A stretch of DNA of 64,000 nt. Source: Flagellimonas sp. 389. GTDB lineage: Bacteria; Bacteroidota; Bacteroidia; Flavobacteriales; Flavobacteriaceae. The translations under genes and the position numbers were made by a program. Of the stretch, positions 11,812 through 29,085 are shown one piece after another. The notes beneath the pieces are model-generated. The model had not been told where the DNA came from and ran no database searches. It saw only the letters and a program-made list of their open reading frames with translations. The stretch lies in NCBI RefSeq assembly GCF_018449435.1, contig NZ_JAHCMU010000003.1, positions 203,584-267,583 of the forward strand. Reading direction: 5' to 3'. The first letter of the stretch is position 1. The number at the start of each line of letters is the position of its first letter.

Positions 11812-12450
11812 ATGGCTACAATTAGATTAGGCGATACAGCTCCCGATTTTACTGCTGAAACTTCACAAGGAGCATTAAATTTTTATGATTACCTAGGTGA
11901 TGGGTGGGGAATATTGTTTTCCCATCCTGCAGATTTTACACCAGTTTGCACTACAGAATTGGGAACAGCGGCCAAATTCAAGGATGAGTTTGAAAAGCGC
12001 AATGTAAAAATAATGGCCTTGAGTGTAGATGGTGCGGAATCTCATGCTGAATGGATAAAAGACATCAACGAAACTCAAGATACTATAGTTAATTTTCCGA
12101 TTATAGCGGACGAAGATAGAAAGGTGTCCGATTTGTACGATATGATCCACCCTAACGCGGACGATACGCTAACAGTACGTTCGGTTTTCATCGTCGACCC
12201 CGACAAAAAAGTTAAGCTAATCTTAACCTATCCAGCTTCGACCGGACGTAATTTTTATGAGTTATTGCGCGTAATTGATTCATTACAATTAACTGCGCAC
12301 CATAAAGTTGCGACACCGGCAAACTGGGAACATGGAGAAAAAGTGGTTGTAAGTCCATCAATACCAACCCAAGAGGCGAAGGAGATTTTTTCCAAAGGAG
12401 TTGAAGAAGTCAAGCCTTACCTGCGTTTAACACCGGACCCGACAGCGTAG
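11812..12450 (+). CDS. 1-Cys peroxiredoxin (Prx6 type)
   Basis: A 212-residue cytoplasmic peroxidase that reduces hydrogen peroxide and alkyl peroxides. The peroxidatic motif P-x3-T-x2-C is clear in HPADFTPVC (Pro39, Thr43, Cys46). No other Cys is present in the protein, which supports the 1-Cys Prx6 class with an external thiol reductant. The long C-terminal dimerisation region (from ~160) also fits. A TAATTTTG at 11768-11775 could be its -7 box. It is preceded by a divergent YfiT-like gene and followed by a cold-shock gene. Confidence 0.93.
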   Translation: MATIRLGDTAPDFTAETSQGALNFYDYLGDGWGILFSHPADFTPVCTTELGTAAKFKDEFEKRNVKIMALSVDGAESHAEWIKDINETQDTIVNFPIIADEDRKVSDLYDMIHPNADDTLTVRSVFIVDPDKKVKLILTYPASTGRNFYELLRVIDSLQLTAHHKVATPANWEHGEKVVVSPSIPTQEAKEIFSKGVEEVKPYLRLTPDPTA

Positions 12451-12536
12451 AAAACTTTTCAAAAAAAAATAAAAAATCCTAGTTTCCAATAAATTAACTG
12501 TACATTTGCAGCTCAAATTAATTTTTAGTTTTTATT

Positions 12537-12731
12537 ATGAGTAAAGGAACAGTAAAATTCTTCAATGATTCAAAAGGCTATGGCTTTATTACTGAAGAAG
12601 GTTCAAACACAGATCACTTCGTACACGTTTCAGGCTTAATTGACGAAATTAGAGAAGGTGACGCCGTAGAATTCGAACTACAGCAAGGTAAAAAAGGATT
12701 GAACGCCGTAAATGTACAAGTTATAGATTAA
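12537..12731 (+). CDS. Cold-shock domain protein (CspA family)
   Basis: A 64-residue RNA/ssDNA-binding OB-fold protein. RNP1 is KGYGFITEEG and RNP2 is HFVHVS; the start MSKGTVKFFNDSKGYGFI is canonical. A promoter-like TACATTTG at 12501-12508 leaves a leader of only ~25 bases, unlike the long structured leaders of E. coli cspA. It is followed by a strong terminator and then by two tiny membrane-protein genes. Confidence 0.95.
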   Translation: MSKGTVKFFNDSKGYGFITEEGSNTDHFVHVSGLIDEIREGDAVEFELQQGKKGLNAVNVQVID

Positions 12732-12757
12732 GGTAACAGCACACTTTTTTATAAGAC

Positions 12758-12786
12758 AAACCCAAGCTAATGCTTGGGTTTTTTTA
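12758..12786 (+). terminator. Intrinsic terminator after the cold-shock gene
   Basis: A 10-bp perfect stem AAACCCAAGC / GCTTGGGTTT with loop TAAT and a following T run. Confidence 0.85.
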
Positions 12787-12881
12787 TTTACTTTTTGTTT
12801 AACCTAAACGCAACCTCTTCACTTTTTTTCATCTAAACATTAAACAAACCAAGCTTTCCCACATTTTAAATAGACAACACT

Positions 12882-12968
12882 ATGGGAACCTTTTTTGCAA
12901 TTCTATCAGTTTTACTGGTAGTTAATATAGTATTGCTTTTATTGAGTCTGACTGGTTCTAAGAAGTAA
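12882..12968 (+). CDS. Tiny single-pass membrane protein, copy A (28 residues)
   Basis: ATG to TAA gives a 28-residue peptide beginning MGTFFAILSVLLVVN and ending SLTGSKK: almost entirely one hydrophobic helix with a short basic tail. I do not recognise a named family. It is called because two other peptides in this window share its pattern M-x-T-F-F-x-x-L-x-x-L-L-x-x-N-x-x-L-L-x-x-S: copy B, 126 bases downstream, and copy C at 28906. Shared sequence over the whole helix, including a mid-membrane Asn, is unlikely by chance. Function unknown. Confidence 0.6.
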   Translation: MGTFFAILSVLLVVNIVLLLLSLTGSKK

Positions 12969-12980
12969 ACTTTTATGATT

Positions 12981-13037
12981 CTTTCACTTAATGAAAGCCC
13001 CGAATAATGCTATTGTACAATATAGTAGGGTTTTTTT
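12981..13037 (+). terminator. Hairpin and T-run region between tiny genes A and B
   Basis: A CTTTCA/TGAAAG hairpin at 12981-12997 is followed by CCC at ~12999, a perfect 12-base palindrome TATTGTACAATA at 13011-13022, GGG at 13028-13030 and seven T. The CCC/GGG pairing around the palindrome and the T run look like an intrinsic terminator of copy A. The palindrome could instead be a protein-binding site ahead of copy B. Confidence 0.4.
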
Positions 13038-13094
13038 CCGTTCGGTTGTTGTTAGGATAGGACAATTATCTACGAAAAATAATATAGGTTACAG

Positions 13095-13178
13095 ATGGGC
13101 ACATTTTTTACAGTTTTACTTTTATTACTAGCACTTAACCTTTGTCTGTTATTGGTAAGTGTAAATAAGTCAAAATAA
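13095..13178 (+). CDS. Tiny single-pass membrane protein, copy B (27 residues)
   Basis: A 27-residue peptide, MGTFFTVLLLLLALN then a second hydrophobic half and the tail SVNKSK. It repeats copy A's design: identical MGTFF start, Asn at residue 15 in the middle of the helix, and a Ser then basic end. It is closely followed by its own terminator, which supports a real short transcript. Function unknown. Possible roles include a small membrane regulator or a toxin-like peptide, but nothing in the sequence decides between these. Confidence 0.6.
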   Translation: MGTFFTVLLLLLALNLCLLLVSVNKSK

Positions 13179-13203
13179 AAGCTCCCAAGATTTGAGAGCT
13201 TTT
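13177..13203 (+). terminator. Intrinsic terminator after tiny gene B
   Basis: AAAGCTC / GAGCTTT stem, extended by CAA/TTG after one mismatch, and followed by TTTTG. It overlaps the stop codon of copy B and can also serve the convergent peptidylprolyl isomerase gene. Confidence 0.65.
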
Positions 13204-13226
13204 GTTTATTTTGAAGTTAAATAGTT

Positions 13227-14159
13227 TTATTTAACGTTCATCAATTCAACGTCAAATATCAAAGTCGCATCAGGAGGAATAACTCCACCGGCACCAGCAC
13301 TACCGTAAGCCAAATGTGATGGTATTACAAAACGAGCTTTATCACCCACTTTTAATAACGCAATACCTTCATCCCATCCAGAAATTACTTGGCCTACGCC
13401 CAACGTAAAATCTATAGGTTCATTTCTACTGTACGAGGAGTCAAAAACTTGTCCGTTCGTTAAGCTACCTTCGTAGTGTACCGATACCGTTTTACCTTTT
13501 TCCGCTTTTGCTCCACTACCCTGTTGAATCATTTGATAACGCAGACCAGATTCAGTTGTATCAAAACCAGCTGCTAATTTTTCCATTTCTGTTTCTGCCT
13601 GTGCCTTTTGTTCTGCAATCCGCTTCTCCCTAGCTCCTTCAAAAGTTCTAAATGCTTCAATGGCATTCCAACTTTCTGCTTCAGACCCTACTCTTACAAT
13701 TTCAAGTGTTTCAAGAACATCGTTTTGGGCAATGGCATCAACAACTTCTTGTCCATGTTCCACAAAACCAAAGACGGTATGTTTGTTATCTAACCAAGGC
13801 GTAGCAACATGCGTTATAAAAAACTGACTGCCATTGGTTCCAGGACCTGCATTGGCCATGGATAGTACTCCCGGTCCTTCATGCGTAAGTTCTGTGTGAA
13901 ATTCATCATCGAACTTATATCCAGGATCACCAGTTCCCGTTCCTTGAGGACATCCTCCTTGAATCATAAAATCCTGTATGACACGGTGAAACTTAAGTCC
14001 ATCATAGTAGGGCTTCCCTTGTGGTTTGCTACCATTTTCCATATTGCCCTCTGCCAAGGCTACAAAGTTGCCTACCGTACCAGGGGTTTTATCATGGGTC
14101 AATTTTACTAAAATCTCCCCTTTTGTAGTATTAAATTTTGCGTAAATTCCGTCTTGCAT
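13227..14159 (-). CDS. Cyclophilin-FKBP fusion peptidylprolyl isomerase
   Basis: A 310-residue two-domain prolyl isomerase. Residues ~1-165 form a cyclophilin with FHRVIQDFMIQGGCPQGTG, SMANAGPGTNGSQFFI and ATPWLDNKHTVFG (the Trx-like Trp of cyclosporin-binding forms is present). Residues ~215-310 form an FKBP domain with VSVHYEGSL, GQVFDSS, VISGWDEGI and AYGSAG. The ~50-residue linker (EGAREKRIAEQKAQAETEMEKL) is charged and helical. Such cyclophilin-first fusions (CFBP) are known from Flavobacterium relatives. No signal peptide is visible, so it probably acts in the cytoplasm as a folding helper. Confidence 0.92.
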   Translation of the reverse strand: MQDGIYAKFNTTKGEILVKLTHDKTPGTVGNFVALAEGNMENGSKPQGKPYYDGLKFHRVIQDFMIQGGCPQGTGTGDPGYKFDDEFHTELTHEGPGVLSMANAGPGTNGSQFFITHVATPWLDNKHTVFGFVEHGQEVVDAIAQNDVLETLEIVRVGSEAESWNAIEAFRTFEGAREKRIAEQKAQAETEMEKLAAGFDTTESGLRYQMIQQGSGAKAEKGKTVSVHYEGSLTNGQVFDSSYSRNEPIDFTLGVGQVISGWDEGIALLKVGDKARFVIPSHLAYGSAGAGGVIPPDATLIFDVELMNVK

Positions 14160-28605: not shown

Positions 28606-28794
28606 ATGTTCAGTACAGGACAATTAATTTTTGCCGCCCTTTTCGTTGTAGTTTTTATTGCCATAATCTTAATATCTTATCGGAAGGACAAATCCTTACA
28701 TAACAAAAATTACAAAGGAGTAAAGTGGGTTATGATTTCTTTTATCACATTCATAATAATTTTATTCCTGATCAAACATTTTCTTAAAAATTAA
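28606..28794 (+). CDS. Small two-helix membrane protein (62 residues)
   Basis: 62 residues with helix 1 at ~6-24 (GQLIFAALFVVVFIAIILIS), a basic loop (YRKDKSLHNKNYKGVKW) and helix 2 at ~43-60. The loop is very basic, so it should face the cytoplasm. No family name is recognised, but the clear ATG, charge distribution and position argue for a real gene. It lies just upstream of tiny membrane protein C and crcB on the same strand. Confidence 0.65.
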   Translation: MFSTGQLIFAALFVVVFIAIILISYRKDKSLHNKNYKGVKWVMISFITFIIILFLIKHFLKN

Positions 28795-28905
28795 CAGCAA
28801 GTTTGATTACACCACAAAAATTAACCGTTTTACAACTTTATTCATAAGGCAATACGTACAATGTAGTAAAAGACGTACTTTTGTTTAACGTTAGTTTTGT
28901 ACAAG

Positions 28906-29085
28906 ATGACAACATTTTTCGGCCTCCTTTTAGTTTTACTTATTGTTAATGCATTGCTCTTATTTCTTAGTGTTAATGGTTCTAACAGTAAGTTAAACAA
29001 TATAGCTTCAAAGAAACCCGAAGCTTCTGTAACAAAAATTTTCCCTAAAGAAGCTTCTAAAAGTCAATATAAGAAAGCGGTTTAG
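28906..29085 (+). CDS. Tiny membrane protein, copy C with extended tail (59 residues)
   Basis: 59 residues. The first ~26 (MTTFFGLLLVLLIVNALLL then FLSVNGSN) follow the pattern of the tiny proteins at 12882 and 13095: M-x-T-F-F, mid-helix Asn15 and Ser after the helix. A Lys-rich soluble tail of ~33 residues follows. The ATG at 28906 is preferred to an in-frame TTG at 28897, because the family begins at this Met. A TACTTTTG at 28876-28883 is a possible -7 box. crcB begins 17 bases after its stop. Confidence 0.68.
   Translation: MTTFFGLLLVLLIVNALLLFLSVNGSNSKLNNIASKKPEASVTKIFPKEASKSQYKKAV

Follow-up and report, generated by a model that had tools for sequence, protein, structure and literature searches.

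Three tiny predicted membrane proteins in the window

The window analysed here is a stretch of 64,000 nucleotides from Flagellimonas sp. 389 (contig NZ_JAHCMU010000003.1, positions 203,584 to 267,583), and coordinates are counted from its first base. It contains three short open reading frames for peptides that share one predicted membrane helix:

12882..12968, + strand: peptide A, 28 amino acids, predicted single membrane helix, MGTFFAILSVLLVVNIVLLLLSLTGSKK
13095..13178, + strand: peptide B, 27 amino acids, predicted single membrane helix, MGTFFTVLLLLLALNLCLLLVSVNKSK
28906..29085, + strand: peptide C, 59 amino acids, same helix with a longer polar tail ending in YKKAV

An N-terminal MxTFF (MTTFF in C), a hydrophobic helix, Asn15, Ser22 and a positively charged tail are common to A, B and C. 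A preliminary description of this DNA had listed three frames of 28, 27 and 59 codons with M-x-T-F-F, Asn15 and a Ser-containing end, and had placed A and B 126 bases apart; both statements were confirmed from the open reading frames. It had also known no named family for the peptides, and the searches agreed: A and B matched no Pfam or NCBIfam family at E ≤ 1, leaving the curated cut-offs unmet, and C had sub-threshold matches only. When the own genome was searched with A as the query, the matches were A, B and C, with no fourth at E ≤ 10. Judged by their sequences, A, B and C are a paralogous family without a Pfam or NCBIfam model, and their predicted place is the inner membrane, with a single pass.

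Distribution of the family

Peptide A alone matched 42 of 299 Flavobacteriaceae genomes at E ≤ 0.1, the own genome counted. A profile of 35 short relatives, whose rows were chosen by a pattern demanding Asn near position 15, matched 171 of the 249 Flavobacteriaceae genomes that were at least 95% complete at E ≤ 0.1, and most of those matches weaker than about 1e-3 could be divergent or due to chance. In a phylum-wide draw 36 of 296 genomes matched; matches outside Flavobacteriaceae were dropped as members, the best of them (about 1e-3) being a frame without a start codon. Homologues were found beyond close strains, across many genera of Flavobacteriaceae. Such short genes are missed by annotation. 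When C was used to search 5.8 billion predicted proteins, a single relative (59 amino acids, 42% identical) was recovered, compared with the 171 genomes reached by the profile. Searches of open-licence papers found no description of these peptides.

Scored against a profile lacking the four own-genus rows, A, B and C reached 45.3, 44.9 and 41.8 bits, respectively. For each of them, none of 2000 shuffles of the whole peptide and none of 2000 shuffles of the helix alone reached the real score, which rules out hydrophobic composition alone as the cause of the similarity.

Upstream elements and terminators

The following features flank the three genes:

12808..12836, + strand: element upstream of A, ACGCAACC-N14-CATCTAA, proposed ECF promoter of A
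13025..13050, + strand: element upstream of B, GTAGGGTTTTT...TTGTT, proposed ECF promoter of B, containing a T-run
13177..13203, no strand assigned: terminator stem, possibly shared by B and the convergent FKBP-cyclophilin gene
28876..28899, + strand: a pair of TAnnTTTG boxes that lie 30 and 14 bases ahead of C, a housekeeping-type promoter box

The A pattern, CGCAACCN{14,16}RTCT, had a single match in the window (0.07 expected). The B pattern had two (0.32 expected), the other lying at 2936-2962, where it overlaps an opposite-strand open reading frame. The survey of these elements covered 162 copies of the family that scored at least 20 bits with the profile, after removal of copies that did not differ between 30 bases upstream and the stop codon. 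CGCAAC was present in 76 of the 162 upstream regions (shuffles: mean 1.5, at most 6) and, counted from one base after it, the next ATCT, GTCT or GTAT followed at 16 bases in 45 of the 76 and at 15 bases in 22. GTAGGG was present in 57 of 162 regions (shuffles: 0.8, at most 4), with TGTT 16 bases beyond it in 49 of 58 occurrences. The consensus was CGCAACC-N15/16-ATCT for the A-type element and GTAGGG-N16-TGTT for the B-type element. By element, 73 copies were A-type, 55 were B-type and 34 (17 short and 17 long) had neither. Among the long copies, 12 ending in YKKA[VI] or YKEAI had neither the A nor the B element, and 11 of these 12 carried TAnnTTTG, which the excerpted text of a study of Flavobacterium psychrophilum describes as its housekeeping box (PMC9723704).

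The C-type tail (window 28906-29085; L017, L019, L047, L059, L062, L063, L108, L109 and others) ended in YKKA[VI] in 11 of the 12 copies picked by that ending and in YKEAI in one, and KIYP often stood some 15 residues before the ending. At another place in the own genome, a 57-amino-acid open reading frame with a predicted membrane helix (L226:1500-1763) has a B-type element (GTAGGGTTTTTGGTGCGATAGTTGTT) in front of it.

A and B had each been credited with a hairpin and T-run of their own. This held for B, which is followed by the stem at 13177-13203, but not for A, since the T-run 3' of A (13031-13037) lies within the B upstream element (GTAGGGTTTTTTT). A fold pairing the B element was predicted in 10 of 30 foldable relatives, and in most cases it did not outperform shuffles; for the window, 6 of 100 shuffles were equally stable. 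By a simple test, 3 of the 73 A-type copies had a terminator-like signal behind them (1 after shuffling), as had 19 of the 55 B-type copies (0 after shuffling). As A seldom comes with its own terminator, the A pathway would probably yield both peptides, and the B pathway only B.

Gene neighbourhood

The usual place of A and B is between the csp and peroxiredoxin genes and a convergent FKBP-cyclophilin gene, and that of C is beside crcB and the gene for a 62-amino-acid membrane protein. Among the best 80 loci, the closest named relatives of the FKBP gene of the window were from Flagellimonas and Allomuricauda. The 62-amino-acid protein (28606-28794 in the window) is predicted to have two helices, had no Pfam family over the cut-off, and many relatives retain its gene next to the C position.

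A short copy (MKILLILSVLIVINLILLAFSVNKKTEP-like) lay beside the 62-amino-acid gene at nine loci of other genera (L090, L091, L092, L094, L098, L100, L101, L103 and L117) and beside crcB at two further ones (L088 and L096). The first copy at these eleven loci had an A-type element of 23.8-37.4 bits (L103 being represented by L065 from the same genome). Both L088 and L096 also had a second copy in tandem (MDILIIIFFLIVINALLLFFSVNKKMEP-like) with neither element; at the other locus, too, the members of a tandem pair can thus differ in their upstream regions.

The preliminary description had read a possible stress link from the position of the peptides just after the cold-shock gene. Of the 80 loci, 44 had a boxed peptide and 36 did not; a csp gene lay within 3.2 kb in 33 of the former and in none of the latter, a distribution that favours A and B as accessory peptides of the cold-shock gene. 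However, csp was not found at the remaining 11 of the 44 loci, A-type copies sit elsewhere in other genera, and csp in the window has its own terminator at 12758-12781. We consider such an accessory role highly improbable, and the csp neighbour looks incidental. A stress link remains a viable guess on other grounds, namely that the upstream elements also occur at two ECF sigma systems.

The peptides are short and very hydrophobic and occur in tandem copies, as would a membrane-damaging, type I toxin-like peptide silenced by an antisense RNA. Their location is stable across genera, however, and 11 of the 12 C-type copies have an ordinary promoter box. In addition, opposite-strand TAnnTTTG boxes over the gene and the 80 bases downstream, a count limited to the housekeeping-type box, were found in 6 of 128 cases compared with 11.0 in shuffles. 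A toxin of this kind is very unlikely.

Selection and the conserved helix face

The ratio dN/dS was 0.36 over 34 non-overlapping A-type pairs (bootstrap 0.27-0.47) and 0.35 over 22 such B-type pairs (bootstrap 0.27-0.44). Pairs were drawn greedily, and any that had fewer than two differences or a pS exceeding 0.65 were excluded. The reading frame is under purifying selection. Because the profile rows had been preselected for Asn, counts of this residue among profile hits are biased, and a profile-free count was relied on. The profile-free set comprised the first ATG or GTG open reading frame downstream of an A or B element, at most 3.2 kb from the FKBP gene, in the 80 named loci. An element was present in 44 of the 80 loci; among the 66 locus-class pairs, 2 were without an open reading frame and 62 had one of at least 26 amino acids. 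These 62 frames had Leu11 in every case, Asn15 in 61, Phe4 in 60 and Ser22 in 59, and the sole frame without Asn15 encoded a lipoprotein. In a comparison addressing gene conversion between A and B, identity was 0.54 within a locus, 0.56 among A-type copies, 0.52 among B-type copies and 0.51 between A and B of different loci.

The data support A, B and C as a real, selected family of tiny membrane proteins, of which the mid-helix Asn is the hallmark. The earlier claim of selected peptides with such an Asn stands, with dN/dS at about 0.36 and Asn15 in 61 of 61 profile-free frames of the family; the comparison of synonymous with non-synonymous rates and the shuffled controls, which it had named as checks, both came out on its side. 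A lipoprotein reading of A, B and C was rejected, as they have no Cys at the helix end. Some distant copies read FSCN and could be lipoproteins (L026, L064, L089, L099, L104, L107, L112 and L113).

Conservation was concentrated on one helix face formed by F4, I7, L8, L11, N15, L18, L19 and S22. Among the angles tried, the conservation moment over positions 4-22 peaked at 100 degrees, with a value of 0.65 that none of 5000 permutations reached; the underlying 122 unique A- and B-type peptides were aligned on Asn, which is invariant by construction. With N15 flattened the moment was 0.57 (0 of 5000 permutations), and the profile-free peptides gave 0.644 (0 of 5000; 44 unique peptides from 46 of the 80 loci). 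A single-sequence structure model of C had a helix at residues 2-24 and a low-confidence tail. Among the short copies, residues 1-5 were neutral in 130 of 143 and the tail was net positive in 135 of 143. By the positive-inside rule, the neutral N-terminus and positive tail predict an orientation with the N-terminus out and the C-terminus in. A polar Asn within such a helix face is known to drive helix-helix contacts. From the one-sided conservation and the Asn in the face, we propose that the helix docks on a membrane partner.

The leaders have a conserved C-rich segment: 41 of the 73 A-type leaders contain CCCC, compared with 5.9 in shuffles, as do 11 of the 55 B-type ones, compared with 1.9. 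The segment often reads TTCCCC, mostly 19-29 bases before the start codon in A-type leaders and less regularly in B-type leaders; the leader of A in the window has CCC only (TTTCCC at 12855-12860). A conserved leader would suit transcripts that act as regulatory RNAs or leaders, with the open reading frame incidental. The dN/dS values and the one-sided conservation of amino acids argue against this explanation, no Rfam family was detected in 12400-13400, and a leader would have nothing to control because the next gene is convergent. We regard a purely RNA-level function as barely credible.

Sigma factor systems that share the elements

The own genome had 38 Sigma70_r4_2 matches, and the 30 loci over the cut-off were scanned for the A- and B-boxes with matrices whose training set was limited to the sites of the peptides. 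The best A-box (22.9 bits) preceded an operon for a lipoprotein, an ECF sigma factor (ECF-A) and an anti-sigma factor downstream of recA. The best B-boxes (30.9 and 26.4 bits) flanked one ECF gene (ECF-B), one lying before its FecR neighbour and one before a divergent gene. Weaker sites were detected in the own genome before a second fecR gene (B-like, 13.3 bits, L244) and in five other sigma loci (A-like, 10.0-17.5 bits; L246, L252, L257, L264 and L271), so the assignment of an element to a sigma factor is not exclusive. With A and B each behind the element of a different sigma factor operon, the pair is likely switched on by two stress pathways, and the elements may be the promoters that those ECF sigma factors read.

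Relatives at E ≤ 1e-30, paralogues included, were present in 135 of 149 Flavobacteriaceae genomes for ECF-A and in 117 of 149 for ECF-B. All of the 30 best ECF-A loci, among them the own one, had an A-box (threshold 12 bits) upstream of the sigma gene, against 2 of 600 shuffled regions, and all 30 had recA motifs upstream as well. At ECF-B, a B-box (threshold 13 bits) occurred on the divergent side in 30 and on the FecR side in 29 of the 30 best loci. An ECF-B of at least 70% identity was found in 29 genomes, 28 of which also have a listed peptide match (the exception being G104); co-occurrence of sigma genes and peptide was kept out of the evidence, as it is confounded by descent and genome size.

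The gene for the ECF-A sigma factor (L278:3000-3530, Sigma70 regions 2 and 4) is followed by that for the anti-sigma factor (L278:3542-5107). The latter had no Pfam match; read from its sequence, it has one membrane helix (...VPFWWRMGGVAALLAILFYVI...), then a long low-complexity stretch, and a C-terminal Phe. Many outer-membrane barrels end in Phe. The neighbour of ECF-B matched FecR (PF04773, 76.8 bits) and FecR_C (PF16344, 45.7 bits), both above cut-offs, and the divergent gene had no Pfam family.

The anti-sigma operon and peptide A share one upstream element, an arrangement that would suit a feedback part in which the peptide helix binds the anti-sigma transmembrane helix and tunes sigma release. 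In 27 of the 29 ECF-A loci that could be read (L311-L339), GG follows the WW of the anti-sigma helix, the WW being demanded by the search pattern, and peptide-less Flavobacterium loci with the operon (L351, L354, L356, L358 and L368) have SG in 4 of 5 and CS in 1 of 5, but this sample is small and follows phylogeny. G104 (L328) has GG, yet no listed peptide match, and feedback leaves both the housekeeping copy C and the placement of B under another sigma factor unexplained. A feedback role is accordingly tentative and, in our judgement, unlikely.

The strict A pattern was found in 16 of 26 Flavobacterium genomes. The 31 distinct sites (30 loci) preceded lipoprotein-like open reading frames in 17 cases (16 identified by pattern and L368 by eye) and other frames in 7, with none within reach in 7, and no frame behind these sites scored above 4.1 bits with the peptide profile. 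As A elements occur in Flavobacterium without the peptide, the A pathway can do without the peptide and the element serves other genes. A-type elements stand before lipoprotein-like frames both in the own genome and in Flavobacterium (L213, L217, L372 and L341-L370), and these frames are likely an envelope regulon of the recA-linked ECF sigma factor. At L360, L363 and L369 in Flavobacterium, A-type elements precede another short, very basic frame of 33-34 amino acids that ends in FISEKIIHR or FISKKIIHR, with a second A element about 180 bases off in two genomes. Searches of open-licence papers found no description of the targets of an ECF-A-like system in Flavobacteriaceae.

Proposed mechanism

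The reading that we favour, with a probability of about 0.6, is that A and B are induced by two ECF sigma factors and C by the housekeeping sigma factor, and that all three dock their conserved face on a shared membrane partner. The ECF-A sigma factor would drive A from the element at 12808..12836, and the transcript would probably run into B. The FecI-type ECF-B sigma factor would drive B alone from the element at 13025..13050, and the housekeeping sigma factor would drive C from a TAnnTTTG box. The same helix, made from all three promoters, would then dock by its conserved face, with Asn15 in the middle of that face, on the membrane partner. Retention of the A-type element with the peptide at the other locus counted for this explanation, and the 34 of 162 copies with neither element, 17 of them short, counted against it, as did the weaker sites at further sigma loci and the peptide-free A elements of Flavobacterium.

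Comparison with known systems

The type I toxins Fst, Ldr and TisB are short hydrophobic peptides that occur in tandem copies. Unlike them, the peptides described here have a conserved location and one conserved face, and housekeeping-type antisense boxes are not enriched at their genes.

The B pathway is like FecI/FecR in that an ECF sigma gene lies beside that of a protein with FecR and FecR_C domains; the likeness rests on this pair, the divergent gene being without a Pfam family. The ECF-A operon resembles the Dma/Das systems, which control outer-membrane vesiculation in Bacteroides (PMC13088901). The excerpted text of that study describes the dma2 operon of Bacteroides thetaiotaomicron as encoding an unknown protein, an ECF21 sigma factor and a membrane-spanning anti-sigma factor, the loss of which raises vesicle output through the sigma factor (PMC13088901). 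As in Dma/Das, the ECF-A operon has three genes, for a protein of unknown function, an ECF sigma factor and an adjacent anti-sigma factor, and its anti-sigma factor is Dma-like: the cytosolic part is short, there is one membrane helix, and the tether is long and of low complexity. The comparison is one of gene layout and of anti-sigma helix and tether, and membership in Dma/Das is not claimed. A small membrane peptide is not mentioned for Dma/Das in the excerpted text (PMC13088901).

In a wider reading, the peptides would be a common output module of Flavobacteriaceae envelope-stress circuits with Dma-type, FecI/FecR-type and housekeeping wiring, and A would dock on the Dma-type anti-sigma helix and set the gain of the response; we consider this doubtful. 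For two ECF sigma systems, the family offers a target gene that is defined and can be tested.

MgtS, AcrZ, KdpF and CydX are proteins of about 30-50 residues with one helix that act by binding a larger membrane protein. A and B are like them in size class and in having a single helix. Unlike them, A and B have no Pfam or NCBIfam match, and the paralogues of the family are split between two ECF-type elements and a housekeeping-type box. Such split wiring of one tiny helix is unusual, and it poses the question of what role the peptide has when the signal differs but the binding face stays.
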